Assembly: GCA_951799425.1 (NCBI GenBank)
Contig: OX637401.1
Location: forward strand, 30,181,780 to 30,245,779
DNA: 64,000 nucleotides
Source of the DNA: Ilex aquifolium
Taxonomy: Eukaryota; Streptophyta; Magnoliopsida; Aquifoliales; Aquifoliaceae
Reading direction: 5' to 3'
Shown: positions 23,017-43,127 of the stretch, in pieces
How the letters are laid out: the number at the start of each line of letters is the position of its first letter
How positions within the stretch are numbered: the first letter of the stretch is position 1
Position numbers and translations under genes: made by a program
The notes under the pieces: generated by a model
Told to the model about the DNA's origin: nothing
Database searches by the model: none
What the model saw: only the letters and a program-made list of their open reading frames with translations

Positions 23017-25333
23017 TCAACCCTGCAGGCCGATGATGCCTGCAGAAATTACGATAACATACATTAATTAGAAGTTGTTTAACAACCAATTAGGTATGTA
23101 AACCCAATGTTATTTATAGTGCTTATTATAAATTTTAAGGCTCACAGAGTTTCTCTAAGCACATGTGCTTTTTTAAGGTCAATTTAGGATTTTGATTGGC
23201 AAGCTCATCTTTCTATTTTTATCTAGTTATTTTTGCTGAGTACTCTCTATATATGATTTCCATACAGGTTATTTCAGGAGTTCAAGCAATGTGCTGACCT
23301 CTCTATATCGTGCAATAAGCTTTTGTATTCAAATTATATATAAACCAACTGCATGAGTAATGAAATTAGCCATTAAGTAATCATGCTGCTTACCACAGGC
23401 AACCCTTCCACCAGCATTTCCAGTGCTTTTGCTGAGTTCATGGCCTCCTAAACAAATAGAGGTAGCAAGTAAAGCGCTGCCGTAAGATTGGGCGAGAAAG
23501 ATAAATAATTACTACGAAAAAGCAAAAACTTCAAGAAATACAATGTAACAATCAGTGCATGCAATCAACTCAACTATAATTTGAGGCAAATATCTAATAA
23601 CTCGTTTACTACGTGTTACATGATGGGGTTTTTTTTGTCTAGTTGGCCTTGCTGGAAGGTAAATGGTTTACAGTTGAAGCTATTATAAAGGCAACGTATT
23701 GATTATAAAATTGGTGCTCACCCTTTCCCAGATCATCAGGGTCACCATGGACAACTACAGCCCTTCCAATGATGGAATGTGGTCCAGAGAGCGGAATCTG
23801 AAAACAATAGCCCATATTTGAGAGATCTGTTAAAAAGGAAGTACATAGAATGTTTTACGCAAATAAGAGCCTGACAAAAAAAGTCACCTGCTTGTCAACA
23901 ATAGTGAAGGAAGCAGTACCTAAAACATAAAAAGTCACGGCAATATGTCAGAGCTGCATATATTCTGTGAGGTATTATGTAACTTTAACAAATGCGTGTC
24001 TTTTCTATTACATAACTAAATCATGGTAGTGGTCTCTACCAGCACTGTATTAAAATTCCATACATAGATGAGCACAAGACTCGATGGCTTAAGCTTTTGG
24101 GTCAAGATTGGATTCAACTTGTATATTTAGGCTAAGAGGCAACGGTCTGGTGATCCTAATAAAATAAAAAAAGCAGTGTCGCCACATGGTTCTGGCGAAA
24201 GAATGATGTCAGTTCTTAGAGTCCTGGTAATGCATATTGGACTGTCGATGGAGCAGGGTGTGTGCATAATGCAGACTCCTGAGGAATAGTGACTCGGTGA
24301 CTCATGAAGAGTGGTTTAGACATGGGCCTTGCTAAGAGGAGTGATTCACACTCAAGGGGGTCTTAATGTTTAGTGAGGGTTCACACTTGACGAGAAAAAT
24401 GCTTTGGGGTAACAAGTGAGAAAAGAAGAGGCACACATTGGATGGAGAATGTGCATTGGGACAATTGACTTGCTGGTTCAAGGATTCGGCTCAAATTGAG
24501 TTCCAATCTATCTATTTAGGTCCTGCTGTCTCCCCATTTTTCCTAGCAATTTCAGAGCAAAACAACTGCCATCCTACCATGGCTATTAAAGTTAATTGTG
24601 CAATGCCAGTCTGTATGTGCAATAAAAATAACCACGTAAACTAAGATTTTACTAACAGTGGTGATAGCAATTACACAATAATGGCTATACGAAGTTCTCT
24701 CATTAAACAAGGAACGAAGTACAATATTTAAGATAAAGCCGCTATATTGACAAATATTTATGATAAAAAAAATTTAGGCAGAAATCGATATATATTTATG
24801 ATGATGATGGGGTAGAAGATTTTCTAGTCATAATTAAACAGCATGTACCATCTTCACCAACTGTAACATTGCCAAGATCACCAGCATGACGATTCTCATC
24901 CTTTGGAGCACCATGCTCTTTGTTAGCAGGATTGAAATGTGGTCCTGCAAATTCACCCGATCAAAACCATACTCGTTGAAGTATCATATTGTTTGTTCCC
25001 CAATCCCCATCCCCCAGTTCTCCATGGATACCTATAAAATGAAGATGACAATGGAGAATAAAGATAACCTGTTGACATGCAGCCATTTGTTGTGTCACCA
25101 AGAGCATGGACATGGAAACCATGAAGCCCAGGTTTCAGACCACAAAGATTTCCTGTAACTGTAGTTGGACCTGAGACAAAACAAATAGAATAGTTTTAAT
25201 TCCATGTTCACAGTCGTGTGTTGATACCAGTTGATTATATGATAAATTTAGAATTACCATCTCCTTCTTGGGTAAAAAAGATGGTGCCACTAACATCCTC
25301 ACTGCTGCTGAGAACTGCGACAGCTTTCACCAT
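23017..25333 (-). CDS. CSD1: cytosolic Cu/Zn superoxide dismutase (CSD1-type)
   Basis: It dismutates superoxide to hydrogen peroxide and oxygen. Seven coding exons join in frame to 152 aa: 25258-25333, 25069-25170, 24849-24944, 23888-23919, 23722-23797, 23394-23447 and 23017-23039. All introns are GT-AG. Copper ligands are His45, His47, His62 and His119; zinc-loop histidines and Asp lie in GPHFNP...HAGDLG. Cys56 (GCMST) and Cys145 (RVACG) form the conserved disulfide. The start [14 protein letters not shown] has no targeting peptide, and the C-terminus GIIGLQG lacks a peroxisomal tripeptide, both of which point to the cytosolic form. Length and exon layout match plant CSD1. A further untranslated exon is inferred at about 26458-26600, and the junction of the leader carries a miR398-like target. 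The symbol is by homology, not by orthology testing. Confidence 0.96.
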
Positions 25334-25340
25334 TGTTATA

Positions 25341-26472
25341 TGTGATCTAAGCAAGTGACAAAACCATATGTTATTAGTTAGCTACAATATCAATAATTTA
25401 TAATAACCAGGTCTTATAAACCAGATACACATGTGAAAGCCATCAAGAAGTAGCTGGTCTACCAGTTTCACGGATTAAGATGATTATAGACATGCATATA
25501 GAAACCCACGAGGACAGAGTTTAAATAAATTCCCCGTAAAATAAAAACAAAAGACCCAGAACAGTACGACACAGATAAAACTTCCACTACCATCACCACG
25601 AACCCCCTCCAAATGGATTGAAGTTAAGATAGACTTGAGTTTAAGTGATGCAATACCTTCAATGGACTATAGGGTGTATTTGCGAATTTCTCTGTATGGG
25701 TGAGTGACAAGTTAAGGGCCATTGAAGGAGTCCCCAACAGGTTTTTATGTTCCATCCTAGTAAAGCCGAATTCCATTTTGCTATTTTTTCTGCTTTATCA
25801 TGTGTGGTTGTGGGTACACAAGTGCACGTACAGAAATAGCAATAGAGTGCAAAAAGATTTGAATACCAATAACATATTAGACAAAATTGCTTAAGCCAAT
25901 TAATAACTATTAACTAGATCTTATCTAACATACAATTCCGCAGAGTAATAAAACCCAAAATACAATCAAGCTATTTCAATCAATAAACAAAACTATCACT
26001 TGCTATAGCACTCAATTAAGTAGGAAATCATTCACAACCCACTCAAAACTCAAAAGAATCTCGAGTATTTCAGTCGTTTGAAAAGAAAAAAAAAGCTACA
26101 GAGATGCTACTCTAACCCCAAACAAAGACAATCGCGCAAGCAAGCACACAGCATGTTAACTGATAAACTCTAGATCTATAACTTCAGAGGTTGCTGATTA
26201 GGAAACATACAACTTATGATCATCCAAACCGACAAGAATAAAAAGGAAGTTGTTGATCAGCGTAAAAATTAAGCTACATCAAATAACAAATTAAGGATAG
26301 ATTTAAGTCAAACAAACATATAGATTCTCTGATGAAACAAAAGCATAATATTTATTTTGGGAATAGAATAGAAAAACAGAATAATTTGAAACACTACTGA
26401 GATCATACAACTTGATACCAGCATGTGGATAGAGAGAAATTGATCAATCCTGTTTACCTCAGAACACCCCTT
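25341..26472 (-). promoter_or_regulatory. miR398 target site in the SOD 5' UTR, split by a UTR intron
   Basis: On the minus strand the leader exon ends AAGGGGTGTTCTGAG (26458-26472), followed by donor GTAAAC. The next exon opens ATCACA (25341-25346) after acceptor CTTAG, eight bases before the ATG. Joined, the 21 bases differ at two positions, as I recall it, from the known miR398 site in the Arabidopsis CSD1 5' UTR. Pairing with miR398 leaves a U:U at miRNA position 5 (also in Arabidopsis), a G:U at 12 and a U:U at 13. The expected cleavage point (opposite positions 10-11) is in the first exon. miR398 control of CSD genes under copper and stress is established; the split position here is read from the sequence. 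Confidence 0.75.

Positions 26473-26479: not shown

Positions 26480-26511
<32 letters not shown>
26480..26511. repeat. (GA)n microsatellite in SOD leader
   Basis: About 16 GA units, read as CT on the transcribed strand, lie a few bases upstream of the miR398 half-site in the inferred 5' UTR. CT-rich leaders are common in plant genes; the repeat is likely length-variable. Confidence 0.9.
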
Positions 26512-26515
<4 letters not shown>

Positions 26516-26854
26516 TCACTTATCAGTGTGTTGGAGAAAAACTAATGTATGTGACCGATATGTGATCAGTGTTCACTGTTTCACCAACCCCTTGGAGCAA
26601 CTGGGCTCACGCGCTGTATTTCGTTTAATTTATTTCTTACTGATGCCCGTTTGGTAGGAATGATGAAAAATATGATGAATATACTTTTTATCCTCCAAAT
26701 AAGGAAAGTATAAATAATACATTTTCCTTCATTTGTGGTTGGTAGGATGAATAGAAAATAAAAGTGATTAAATTTTTTTTTTTGCTTGGTAAGATGAAAA
26801 AAATATTTTTTTTTTAAATTTTTTTAAAAAAGTATATATATATCAAAGTATATA

Positions 26855-27574
26855 TCTATATAATAAAGTAGTTTACAATTCAAATGTCAAAAGATAAAAA
26901 AAATGACTTTTGCTATTCGCGGTTAAGATCGCTTTAAATTTTACTTTAAAGTTAATCTAACGGCTAATATTAACACCTTATATTTAATAGGAAAAATAGG
27001 TCTCTAAGTGTGTGTTTGGAGTGACTTTTTAAAAATACTTATAGAAATTATTTTTCATAAGTAATTTAAAAAAAATATATAATGTTTGAAACTGCCACAC
27101 CACTACCTCTACCACCACCACCGCCGTCGCCCCCCACCACCACCACCTCTACCACCACCATCTCCATCGCCGCCACCACCACCATCGTCACCGTCGCCAC
27201 CGCCACTGCCACCCCCACCTCTACCGCCACCCCCATCACCACCTCCACCGCTACCACCGCCACCGCCGCCACCATCACCACTGCCTCCACCACCACCGCC
27301 ACTGTCACTATCATCATCGTCACTCAAAACCCACCACCACCATCACCATTCCCACCCACGACTGCTACCACCACCATGGTCATCGTCTTACCCACCACAA
27401 CCATCATCGTCTCCCACCATCACCATTGTCGCCCACCATCGCTCACCCCCACTATAATCGATACTTAAATTTATTTATCTCTCCTTTATGTTTGAGATTT
27501 AATTTTGGGTGTGAATACAAATATGTTGATCTTTTTTTTATTATTCCGTGTCTTCAGGCACGGGAAATAACTAG
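26855..27574 (+). mobile_element. non-autonomous Helitron-like element with (CCA)n core
   Basis: The 5' end reads A then TCTATATAATAAAGTAG. The 3' end has the hairpin CCGTGTC-ttca-GGCACGG followed after about ten bases by CTAG and then T. These match Helitron rules: 5' TC, 3' hairpin plus CTRR, and insertion between A and T without duplication. A second copy in reverse at 59648-60241 shares both ends and long flanking stretches. The core, about 27100-27460, is an expanded imperfect CCACCA/CCGCCA array that opens several false Pro/Thr- or Gly-rich frames. No Rep/helicase is encoded. Confidence 0.75.
27100..27460. repeat. imperfect (CCA/CCG)n trinucleotide array
   Basis: Dozens of CCA, CCG and TCA triplets make up the centre of the Helitron-like element. 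The frames they open are pure low-complexity sequence and are not called as genes. The reverse copy has its own array at about 59780-60000. Confidence 0.9.
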
Positions 27575-37101: not shown

Positions 37102-40100
37102 ATGTGTATGTTAATCTTGATAACAATGACCAACCAAAGTATATGTCTGTTTCTCTCACATAATATCATGAATTTTCACTTACCTGCAGGTTAGGATTCT
37201 TCACTCTCTAGATCACCCAAATGTACTCAAGTTTTGTTCATGGTGAGGCTTGTTATTATTTGGAGACAAGAACTTTTTTTTTGATTTGATAGGGTGCTTA
37301 TATGATTTTGTTAGATGATTATCATCCTAGATGATCAGTTCAATGTCATTTTTGGAATTTCAGTTGGATAATTCTTCTTTCTTTTTTCACTGAATCCACA
37401 TATTAGGTATGAAACTTCTGCTCACTTGTGGTTGGTTTTGGAATATTGTGTTGGAGGAAATCTCATGAACTTATTGCAGCAGGTATTTTATACATATCTA
37501 GCTGTTATGCCCAAATAGAAGGAGCCAGAAACTGTAGCTCTTGTATATTTGTATGGATGCAATCTCATACTCTTCCATATAGTAAGCTGCTCATACTGGT
37601 TTGCTAGGTAACATAAAGTAGGATTTTGCATCCATAGATGATAAACCTTTATCAGGATACACAGTTAAATAACACATTGTTATTCCAATGGAGGTCTCCA
37701 TATCCTTTTTTGTCATGCTACAATACACTTAACAATCTCTGTTACATCGATGATTTGAATTTTAAGATGCCTGTTGCAGGATGGTAAGCTTCCAGAAGAT
37801 TCAATACATGATCTTGCTCGTGACCTTGTCAGAGCTTTGCAGTAAGAGAAACTCATTAGCCTTGTCTGTTATTTATATTATTACTTTTAGACAAATCTTT
37901 GGATATGGAACATTTAATTTTCAAGTCATGCTCTGGTCGTTGGGCGATTATCAGGTTTTTGCATTCAAAGGGTATTATATATTGTGACTTGAAACCATCA
38001 AACATTCTCTTGGATGAAAATGGACGCACAAAGGTATTTGACCATCATTTTATGGTTCTTTTCTTGTGACATGGCAAATAGTTTTCTTCACCATACCTGT
38101 AAAGAGTTTCCTTTGATTCCTGTTTTGCAGCTTTGCGATTTTGGGTTAGCAAGAAAATTGAGTGATATATCTAAAACAGCTTCTTCCCTAGTGAGTTTTT
38201 AAAAAAATGGGGTTTCCTTACATTATACCAGTTTAATGACAATCACAATTTGCAATTCTCATTTCCTTCTACCAAGTCTTTTATTTCCCTCTCTTCATGT
38301 ACTTGTCCAGTTGCCACAAGCCAAACGTGGAACTCCCTGTTACATGGCTCCTGAGTTGTTTCAGGATGGAGGAGTGCATTCTTATGCTTCTGATTTCTGG
38401 GCCCTTGGTTGTGTGCTATATGAGTGCTATGTAGGGAGGCCTCCCTTTGTGGGGAAAGAATTCACACAGCTAGTAAAATCAGTCCTTTCAGATCCAACTC
38501 CAGTCCTTCCCGGCTCCCCAAGCCGTCCTTTTGTCAATCTGATCAGTTCTCTCTTGGTAAAAGATCCAGCTGACCGAATACAGTGGCCTGAGCTTTGTGG
38601 ACATGCTTTTTGGAGAACAAAATTTACTCCATTGCCCTTACCTCCTCAGCCTGCTTTCACTACCATGATAGAGCTTTCTTCTAAACCCTATCTCTCCGAA
38701 CGCAATGGTGACAAACCTCTCCAGAACAAGACCCCAAGTAAAAATAGGGAAAGAGATACAAGAGGGGCTTCTAGACAGGATGAGAATTCTATTTTAGGAT
38801 CAAGAAGTCATGGCACACCAATTAAGGGTGTATCCGGTGGCCGAAAAACTCAAACAAAGGCTTCAGGCAGAGTGGCTGAGGAGAAGCAAAAGGATCTGTC
38901 AAATAATACTGCGGCTGTGAATCTTCTAAGGCTTTCAAGAATTGCAAAATCAAACTTACAGAGGGAAAATGAGAAGGAGAACTATCGGAGGCCATTGCCT
39001 AATGGTTCTGAGAATGATGCTGAAGTGAAAATTGAAAACAATGATATGGAACTTGATTTTAATGAGAATGTTGAAGATGAGACACAAGATGAACCTGATG
39101 GGTCTGATGGCCCAACATGTACCCCTGAAGAAAATCTGTCAATTCCAAATCAGCATGAGCGTAGAACAGAGGAGACGGACAGTAATATAAACAACATAGA
39201 TACATCACCTGCGCTCAACACACATATATCAGATGACTCGAGAATAACTGACCAGGAATCGTCGTCAGACCATATTGAAGTGGCTGCTACTCCACCCAGT
39301 GTCAGTCCTCAACTCAAGACTCAAAGGATTAAAGAAGTTTCAGGGGGTACCATTGCTTCTGATACTTCAAAATCATCTACTAGTCTCTCGGAGGTGATTT
39401 GGCATCCATGTGACCTCTCAGTCAGACCTGTGATGCCCAGCAGAAAGTCTGACAAAGGATCAGATGTGATTCCTTCTCTCCCCTTTGATGCAATTCCAGC
39501 ATCTGATTTTGTGAAAATGTCTAAGGATAAGCTTGACACACTCAACAATAGGATCATAACCATCTTTAATGGGAACACTGCTATTGGTGAGAAGCAGAAT
39601 GTGATCAGGTACCTTGAGATGATAAGCAACAATACAGATGCTGCCAACGTATTGACCAATGGACCAGTAATGCTGGTTCTTATTAAGATGCTCCGACAGT
39701 CTAAGGCTTCGGCTCTACGTGTTCAACTTGCTTCAATTATAGGTTTGTTGATTCGGCATTCTACTTTTATTGAAGATGATTTGGCAAACTCTGGAATTTT
39801 AAGTTCACTGTGCGATGGCCTAAGAGACAGGCAAGAAAAAGTGAGAAGGTTTTCTATGGCTGCTTTGGGTGAGTTGTTGTTTTATATATCTACACAAAAC
39901 GAGCATGCCAGAGATAATAATCCACCAGAATCTCCATCGAAGGACAGCCGATCCTTTTCTTGTTGGCAGGTTAGTTTCCTTTGTTATTGGCACAGCCTTC
40001 TTGTTGGTGTGCTGGAGCTTGTCCAGCTTGTTTGTTTTATTTATTAATTTTTTTGTTTCCTATAACAAATCAGTTTAAGCATATTAGAGTGGCTTCATCA

Positions 40101-43100
40101 ATCTTCTCTGTGGGGATTTTTTCTATGCTTTAAATAAATCTCTGAATAAAGTTGTTGAGTACTTCTCTTTTGCATTTAACATGTTCTTCTAAAGCTAAAT
40201 TTCTTTTTACATTAAGTTATTTCTCTTGTGCAGGTGCCAAATCCATTAATTTCATTGGTTTCATCTCTTTTACGAAAGGGTGAGGATGATATAACTCAAC
40301 TCTATGCATTGAGGACAATTGAAAACATCTCGAGTCAAGGAGGACAGTGGGCAGCCCGTTTCACGAGCCAGGACATAATTAGTAACCTTTGCTACATATT
40401 TAGGGCTCCAGGGAAACAGGAGAGCATGAGGCTCACAGCAGGATCTTGTTTGGTACGTCTTGCTCGTTTTAGCCCTCCTAGCATACAACAGGTCATAGAA
40501 AAGCTTTCATTCAAGGAGATTGCATCAAGCCTTGTCAAGGGCGGTCCACGAGAGCAGCAAATCTGCTTGAACCTTCTCAACATGGCCATGCTTGGAAGCC
40601 ATATGTTTACCAACATTGGACGGTATCTCCTTCCCTTGGTGGAAGACAGGAATTTTGTCCCACATATTGTCTCTCTTATTGAGCAGGGAAGTGAAATCTT
40701 AAGGGGAAAGACACTTATATTTGCTGCTTTACTATGTAAGAGTGGGAGAAGATGGCTGCTACATTTCTTTTGCAATGCAAGACTGCTCTCAGCTGTTGAC
40801 AGGCTGGTAAAGGAGAAAGACACCTATTTAAAGCAGTGCTTAGATGCATTTGTGCATGTTGTAGTATCTACTTTACCAGGTTTGCTGGAGACCATAACAG
40901 GAGATGTCCAACAATTGATGGGAGGGAGACGTCTTGGGCATATCACTACCCTCACCAACCGAGCTACTACAAAGACCAATGTTCATTTGTTTCCTGTCAT
41001 TCTCCATCTTCTTGGGAGCTCTTCCTTTAAGCACAAAGTGTCGAGTCATCAGGTTCTGCAGCAGTTGGCAAATCTAATCAAACTGGCAGAGTCACCTTTT
41101 CAGGCAAGTATATTGCAACTAAGACCATGAATTATGTTTCTAAATATTACTGCAACACGGAAGGTTTTAGGAAATAATCAGTACTTTTCTAATCCATGCA
41201 CTATTCAATCTCTTTCTGCCTTAATATCAATGATCAAAGCCTAAATTGATGAGCCGTGTGCCCTAACTCTTTAATACATTATATTTGGGTCCTAGTGAAA
41301 GCAAGGCAATTTAGCTAAAATTCATGCGGAAGTTGGTGTCCTATATGCACACGCTATAATTATAATAATACTGCTAGAATCTTGGTGATATGCTTTGGGG
41401 TGCTTGAGATTTGCTGTTTATTGATCTACTTGGGTCTGAATTGCATGGACAATGATATCAGCGAATGAAAAAGCTAATTCTTGGCTGACTTGGTGCTACC
41501 AATTGGGAATTATGTTGGTCATGCTGCATTTCTTGAGGTGGCTTGAGTTGATTTTGTAAAGGTTGAGGATTTCCTCTTTTGTTTGCCCTGTACATTCATT
41601 TTCCTTTTGATATATTTGTGGTTTAATAAAAACAGAAAAAGAAATGGATTATGCATTATCAATTTCACCTTACATGCTGCTTGAACTGCAAAACAACCTC
41701 ATGTGACTGCTTAGTTGCTGACATAACAAGAAGCTAGGGCATATACCATGGCACCTACAATGGTAGAATAGGAGTTGCAACCACTCTTCCAAATATGAGT
41801 GGGGTGTATATTTGAAGGGATTATGTATATTTTGTGTATATGTATTTATGTGTGGATATATTGGACAGTCCTTGAAAGAGTTTGTCCTCAATCTCCAGGG
41901 ACTAATTCATTTAACGCTGAATTTACTTAGTCGCCACAGAAAATTGAAATTGATGAATATTTCTTATTGATGTGTTTACATTTATGCACATACCCTCTCA
42001 ATGAATTTCAGGGCAGGGATGACTTTCAAATAACCCTTCTACGAATTCTTGAGTCCATTTCAGAGGAGCCTTCTGTAATTCTTGAAAGCCCCAACATTTT
42101 TATCCGTGAAATTCTTCCCAGTTTGGCTGTTCTGTACAAAGGAAACAAAGATGGAGATGCCAGATTTTTGTGCCTGAAGATTTTGTTTGATGTGATGGTC
42201 ATTTTTCTAGACGAACCGTCAGGAGATGAGCAGAGAACAGAGGATTTGAAGTCCATATCTAATACTTATTTTCTTCCTCTTTACCCCACCTTGATCGAGG
42301 ATGAGGATCCCATTCCCATGTATGCACAGAAACTTCTCGTGATGCTCATTGAGTTTAATTACATAAAAATTGCAGACATCATACATCTGAAGACAGTCTC
42401 ACAGTGCTTTGAATTTCTTCTTGGTGATTTCTCAACTGCAAATGTAAGCAGTGTCATGCTTTGTCTGGCTCTTGCATCTGCCCCAGAGCTGGATACCAAG
42501 ACACTCTCTCAACTGAAAGTGGTTAGGAGGATTGGAAACCTTCTGGAGTTTGTGCATGCAAAGGAAATGGCAGATTTTATTGAACCAACTCTTGGTCTGT
42601 GTAGGACTTTCCTTTTTCGCTCAGTGTGCAGAAGGAAAGGGTTTGTTTATGCAAAAGAACCTACTCTATTATGTGATAGTTCTTCTGAAGGAAGCAGTGC
42701 AGTTGATCAACAGGACTGCATTAAGGACATAATGGACTTTGGTGCTAATGTTGGTGTCTTGCTGGAATTGAGCAAGTCTCATGAGGCAAATGTTGCAGAT
42801 TTAGCTTCTGAATCTGTAATTTTGTTGCTCAAGGCAGCTCCAAGGGAGGCTACTACTGGTTTTCTAAATAATCTTCCGAAGGTCACTTTGATCCTTGAGT
42901 CATGGTGCCGAGGCATCTCTCCCTTACTCATCCAGCGGATGCTGCATGCCCTTGGTTATTCCTGCCGGCTGTATTTGTCACAGGCAATGATATTGTCAAT
43001 ATCGATTCCAGATATTTCAAAAATTGAAATGATTGTTTCTGAGCTCAAAAGTTCTAGCATACCAGCTGTTGCTGATGCTGCTTTTCGTGTGGCCATGGAA

Positions 43101-43127
43101 CTTCAGAGGCTGCTTCGTTGCATTTGA
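36151..43127 (+). CDS. RUK: RUNKEL-like kinase-domain / HEAT-ARM-repeat protein
   Basis: Ten exons join in frame to 1370 aa: 36151-36198, 36286-36375, 37190-37242, 37407-37482, 37780-37841, 37955-38033, 38131-38190, 38311-39969, 40234-41103 and 42012-43127. The kinase domain spans about residues 4-254: Gly loop GRGKYSTVY, Lys33 in FAVKSV, catalytic-loop Asp121 in YCDLKPSN (Tyr-Cys-Asp replaces His-Arg-Asp), DFG at 139-141, and APE ending at Glu171. A charged, low-complexity linker (about 260-440) follows, then helical HEAT/ARM-like repeats to the end. Arabidopsis RUNKEL has almost the same length and is a microtubule-associated, kinase-like protein needed for cell-plate expansion in cytokinesis, so a phragmoplast role is inferred. 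The start ATG opens [11 protein letters not shown], as in the family. Intron 9 uses a GC donor (CAG then GCAAGT). Animal relatives are ULK4/Fused-like. Confidence 0.95.
37069..37101. repeat. (TGTC)n(TC)n microsatellite in RUK intron 2
   Basis: Several TGTC units pass into about nine TC units within the 36376-37189 intron. It is a simple repeat. Confidence 0.8.

Follow-up and report, generated by a model that had tools for sequence, protein, structure and literature searches.

The locus studied here raises the question of how a miR398 target site is to be understood when an intron lies inside it: as the working site of an ordinary target gene, as a device that ties repression to splicing, or as a resemblance without consequence. 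It is part of a stretch of 64,000 nucleotides of Ilex aquifolium DNA, referred to here as the window, which is located on contig C11 of an 800-Mb genome in 103 contigs. On the evidence set out below, we consider it very probable that the gene is a standard miR398 target of the cytosolic CSD1 type, with a 5' UTR intron placed inside the site.

Structure of the gene and position of the split

A complete CSD1 gene of the cytosolic type was found on the minus strand of the window, consisting of a leader exon and seven coding exons (25258–25333, with the ATG at 25333–25331; 25069–25170; 24849–24944; 23888–23919; 23722–23797; 23394–23447; and 23017–23039 with the stop). The joined coding exons form a frame of 459 nt, which encodes 152 amino acids plus stop and begins with MVKAVAVL. 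The product matches the Pfam domain Sod_Cu (8.8e-52), aligns end to end with a solved 152-residue Superoxide Dismutase chain (2q2l_A) and, as an intact Cu/Zn superoxide dismutase of about 152 amino acids without a transit peptide, belongs to the plant cytosolic CSD1 enzymes. Upstream of the leader, about 205 bases of a CAC/39-bp minisatellite-like repeat were noted (27098–27302), and the plus strand carries a RUNKEL/ULK4-like protein kinase gene (38236–43127), whose three ORFs contain Pkinase, HEAT_ULK4 and RUNKEL ARM domains. Synteny dating by means of this neighbour is uninformative, because its C-terminal part has a single match in the genome, on C11.

The miR398 site is made up of the last 15 nt of the leader exon (AAGGGGTGTTCTGAG, 26458–26472) and the first 6 nt of exon 2 (ATCACA, 25341–25346), which are separated by a predicted GT-AG leader intron of 1,111 nt (25347–26457, all on the minus strand) with the donor GAG/GTAAAC and the acceptor TTGCTTAG, the slash marking the exon border. 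The 3' end of the leader exon at 26458 reads CTCCAAGGGGTGTTCTGAG and the letters that follow AAGGGGTGTTCTGAG at the start of the intron are GTAAACAG; exon 2 opens with ATCACATATAACAATGG, and the borders joined across the predicted junction read AAGGGGTGTTCTGAGATCACA. The split falls between target bases 15 and 16, and seven bases separate the site from the ATG. The original prediction of 15 plus 6 bases, about 1.1 kb apart and with GT-AG borders, is thus exact to the base at the sequence level. The natural donor shows the strongest U1 pairing among the 85 GT dinucleotides examined in this gene and shares the highest agreement with the nine-position donor consensus (6/9 matches) with one other of them. 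Overlapping branch-point-like motifs, CTAAC and CTAAT, are located at 25373–25381, the CTAAC type being common to the paralogue on contig C7, and in the leader a (CT)16 microsatellite (26480–26511) precedes the site by 7 nt.

Pairing with the miR398 of the same genome

Scanning the genome for the Rfam family MIR398 yielded eight matches, which represent both strands of four loci. At least four MIR398 loci therefore exceed the gathering score, all on the plus strand, two on C17 and two on C4; the number is a lower bound, because 47 of the 145,120 first-look candidates were scored. The two C17 loci carry the mature sequence miR398a (UGUGUUCUCAGGUCACCCCUU) and the two C4 loci miR398b (UGUGUUCUCAGGUCGCCCCUG), so that the species encodes miR398 itself. 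An Rfam scan of the window returned 0 matches at gathering scores. In a plain count, GTAC, the core of the copper-response element, was found 4, 6, 8 and 8 times within 1.5 kb upstream of the four hairpins (L027–L030) and once within 1.5 kb upstream of the CSD1 site, the window having 3.2 for every 1.5 kb.

The duplex of the spliced site with miR398a is mismatched at miRNA positions 5 and 13 and contains a G:U pair at position 12, which corresponds to a score of 5.0 and a duplex energy of -28.8 kcal/mol (0.71 of the perfect duplex); with miR398b the values are 6.5 and -28.6 kcal/mol. The 5' part accounts for miRNA positions 7–21, including the mismatch at 13 and the G:U pair at 12, and ATCACA for positions 1–6, with the mismatch at 5, which bears out the proposal that the bases pairing with positions 1–6 are supplied by the second exon. 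In the unspliced RNA the score rises to 11.0 for miR398a (-22.9 kcal/mol) and 12.5 for miR398b, and the unspliced borders overall score between 11.0 and 15. The site is thus absent from the contiguous genomic sequence and is made by joining the predicted exons. A second upstream candidate, AAGGGG starting at 26593, was rejected with a score of 19 for miR398a.

The paralogue on C7 and the degenerate copies

Scanning the genome for Sod_Cu revealed 14 exon matches at nine loci, which we assign by their sequence as follows: C11 and C7 each carry a CSD1 gene, C4 a CSD2-like and C9 a CSD3-like gene, C2 has two CCS-like copies, and C6, C18 and C15 have one degenerate CSD1-like copy each. The site of the C7 gene agrees in all 21 nt and is interrupted after the same base, there by an intron of 2,559 nt: the same 15 bases are followed by GTAAAC, and the same ATCACA follows TTTAG. 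The CT run upstream of the site is present there as well. The two CSD1 coding sequences differ with a dS of 0.17 and a dN of 0.03, and 142 of the 152 residues are identical. From the CT run of the leader into the intron the two genes agree in 67% of 774 alignment columns, other aligned stretches, exons included, reach 66% to 85%, and a 22-nt match in the CT run is 100% identical. At the synonymous rate, the chance that all 21 bases of the site remain unchanged is about 0.03, so that for a pair as young as this the identity backs constraint without proving it.

The copies on C6 (L042), C18 (L043) and C15 (L044) are 81–95% identical to the window gene over the aligned stretches, and no leader exon was found in any of them. 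On C6 and C18, where the window gene has CTTAG/ATCACA, the sequence is CTTAA/ATCTCA, i.e., the acceptor AG is lost and the 3' half of the site is altered. An in-frame stop, too, is common to both and occupies the same position (VS*VHG and AS*VHS). Their similarity to the window gene begins inside the leader intron, and that of the C15 copy further on, in the first coding intron. With regard to the 5' half, neither AAGGGG nor TCTGAGGT occurs in the 3,818 and 4,942 nt upstream of the ATGs of the C6 and C18 copies. As far as the DNA itself can tell, the paralogue and the degenerate copies strengthen the observation.

Leader splicing and possible escape from miR398

The original prediction held that unspliced or alternatively spliced leaders would escape repression. 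Its first half stands in that the site is lost in unspliced RNA, where the score goes from 5.0 to 11.0. As a route to more superoxide dismutase, intron retention is less convincing: the intron contains 21 ATGs in the window gene (44 in the C7 paralogue), compared, over the 110 nt of exon 1 examined, with 0 in the spliced leader (2 in C7), and because of these 21 ATGs a retained intron would hardly give more enzyme. Retained transcripts are, judged by their upstream ATGs, an unlikely source of it. A transcript of SPL4 with a retained 3' UTR intron is reported to be able to reach the cytoplasm and be cut. The second half of the prediction is workable, as alternative leaders without the site are among the reported CSD1 forms of peanut and soybean. 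The practical escape route from miR398 is a different leader.

This leads to the alternative that the split is a regulated switch, in which stress- or copper-dependent leaders, formed by another donor, another first exon or an intronic start, hide CSD1 from miR398. Such splicing has precedents: in peanut, alternative splicing of AhCSD1-2.2 eliminates the miR398 site and bypasses repression in drought (Park and Grabau, 2017, cited in PMC9502370), and in soybean the 5' UTR splice forms GmCSD1a-1 and GmCSD1b-1 of GmCSD1a/b do not contain the miR398c site (PMC7201782). The soybean abstract states that such splicing might bypass miR398c, whereas the conclusion of the same article has the effect of miR398c unaffected by splicing, and the site-less forms were not detected by the authors' 5' RACE (PMC7201782). 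Rice OsCSD4 is also described with two transcripts that differ in the 5' UTR (PMC9191229). The split itself implies that a changed donor or acceptor in the leader intron would break the site, and in the C7 paralogue 7 of the 155 GT dinucleotides examined exceed the natural donor in the strength of U1 pairing, the natural donor being tied there for the most consensus matches. In the window gene, however, none of the other GT among the 85 matches the natural donor in U1 pairing strength, an alternative donor, acceptor or start is hypothetical, and plain retention adds the 21 upstream ATGs. We regard a switch of this kind as unlikely in this gene. A further step would be that selection has kept the position of the intron across CSD1 genes as a licensing device, with only spliced mRNA being repressible and a stress-shifted leader freeing CSD1 independently of the miR398 level; this is a speculative idea to which we give slightly less credit still.

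Strength of the site

Another explanation is that the site is real and barely functional, given its two mismatches (positions 5 and 13) and the G:U pair at 12, and that CSD1 is controlled mainly by transcription or by the action of miR398 on CCS and CSD2. Positions 10 and 11 are paired and the pattern is that of a plant-type target; the scores of 5.0 and 6.5 exceed the usual strict cut-off of about 4. The predicted accessibility of the site is average (0.43 unpaired compared with 0.45 overall). The Arabidopsis CSD1 site scores likewise, with 5.0 for miR398a and 6.5 for miR398b, so that the holly site equals it.

In keeping with such an explanation, other genes offer contiguous pairing. The two CCS-like copies (L057 and L058, about 15 kb apart on C2) each carry a contiguous stretch pairing with miR398b at a score of 5.5, two bases after an acceptor-like CAG. 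An ungapped scan gave no site of 8 or below in the CSD2-like or CSD3-like loci; in the CSD2-like gene, duplex folding pairs a stretch around TGCGGGTGACCTGGGAAACATA at about -30 kcal/mol, leaving one base bulged. Among the miR398 sites found in this genome, the split is limited to the CSD1 pair.

The literature points in both directions. For Hevea, the cytosolic CuZnSOD was reported as not cleaved (PMC3821574), which favours a weak site, whereas CSD1 is listed as a 5' UTR target of miR398 with 5'-RACE support in the review PMC9502370. Together with the equal score of the Arabidopsis site and the identical site in two paralogues, this listing makes a barely functional site improbable in our assessment.

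Chance resemblance

In 20 Mb of first-order random sequence, a score of 5 or below was reached at one place for miR398a and at none for miR398b, and neither strand of the window contains a contiguous miR398 site scoring 6 or below. In the region 26600–25308 (about 1.3 kb), 1,888 GT-AG pairs were tried, each AG lying at least 60 nt downstream of its GT, and a junction-spanning site of 6.5 or below resulted from the natural pair only. Among 300 dinucleotide shuffles, in which a site for either miRNA was counted, 5.0 (the miR398a value) was reached in 0, 5.5 in 1, 6 in 3 and 6.5 (the miR398b value) in 4. The exact 15-mer AAGGGGTGTTCTGAG occurs at four places in the genome, on C11, on C7 and twice on C4; the two C4 copies were rejected as split sites, as they are followed by TGTTGG, which offers no GT donor.

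Genome-wide, the contiguous pattern with up to two mismatches was found at nine places, namely two MIR398 arms and seven others, and the reversed control pattern at seven. None of the nine SOD/CCS loci contains such a contiguous site. One of the places, at C7:14963000–14963020 (L051), is a contiguous AAGGGGTGTCCTGAGACAACA, two mismatches away from the CSD1 site pattern and outside the SOD loci. The spliced site had 0 copies among the IMG/VR viral contigs.

That the junction resembles a miR398 site by accident, a reading for which the two donorless C4 copies of the 15-mer and the 4 of 300 shuffles as good as the miR398b value might speak, is hardly credible in view of the 0 of 300 shuffles at 5.0, the single pair among 1,888, the same split in the C7 paralogue and the membership of the gene in a class known to be regulated by miR398.

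Proposed explanation and its consequences

The split, the predicted pairing with the plant's own miR398, the same split in the paralogue and the decay that the acceptor and the 3' half show in the C6 and C18 copies can be read from the DNA. For the standard miR398 target that we favour, we infer the following steps of splicing, cleavage and copper response. Splicing, presumably constitutive, would join AAGGGGTGTTCTGAG to ATCACA and so complete the site; AGO1 loaded with miR398 would then cut the exported mRNA in the leader exon, between 26462 and 26461, and cleavage would lower CSD1 when copper is short. This bond (26461–26462, minus strand, inside exon 1) is predicted from the pairing as the one opposite miRNA positions 10/11, in line with the rule given in PMC9502370. 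A junction inside the site would be tolerable, since the mRNA on which miRNAs act is cytoplasmic and already spliced, and the position of the junction is probably inherited gene structure, with no dedicated switch. The points that count against this explanation are the score of 5.0 above the usual cut-off of about 4, the young age of the paralogue pair, the rank of the C7 donor and the average accessibility. The uncleaved cytosolic CuZnSOD of Hevea (PMC3821574) and the banana MaCSD1A mRNA, which is described as having no miR398 site (PMC4615540), are counted in the same direction.

Because the site is absent before splicing, target searches in the unspliced genome or in coding sequences alone miss CSD1, and this might explain some of the reports in which CSD1 appears as a non-target. 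Editing of the donor or the acceptor would test miR398 control with the coding sequence untouched. Should the junction turn out to be conserved among flowering plants, it would provide a clear example of mutual constraint between a splice junction and a regulatory site.

Comparison with known systems

In the passages of the literature searched, no description of this exact CSD1 junction was found, which does not establish its absence from print. The letters of the 3' half-site occur as a target site only in the maize SOD-4A entry among the plant miRNA papers examined, the other matches there being miR398-5p strands (in longan, dlo-miR14) or a pre-miR398 primer. The predicted target of maize SOD-4A ends with CCUGAGAUCACA, which is compatible with the same joint (PMC4510349). 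In banana, 5' UTR introns are reported for MaCSD1B and MaCSD1D (one each) and for MaCSD1C (two) (PMC4615540). For the CSD1 of rice, a site in the 5' UTR with 3 or 3.5 mismatches is described (PMC8068833).

The closest general model is the CSD1 module of Arabidopsis, with which the Ilex gene shares the enzyme class, miR398, the site in the 5' leader and the mismatch at position 5; a difference is that in the Ilex gene the leader intron can be seen to split the site. For peanut and soybean, the loss of such a site through splicing has been published before. Like the Ilex gene, the peanut gene AhCSD1-2.2 is a CSD1 whose miR398 site depends on splicing, and GmCSD1a-1 and GmCSD1b-1 of soybean belong to CSD1 genes whose site depends on 5' UTR splicing; unlike it, they are known from isoforms seen in peanut and reported in soybean, the Ilex gene being known from its structure alone. 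In Arabidopsis, alternative splicing affects 44 of 354 miRNA sites (Yang et al., 2012, cited in PMC4324062), and the gene described here would fall, as one gene, into this general class in which the presence of a miRNA site depends on splicing.
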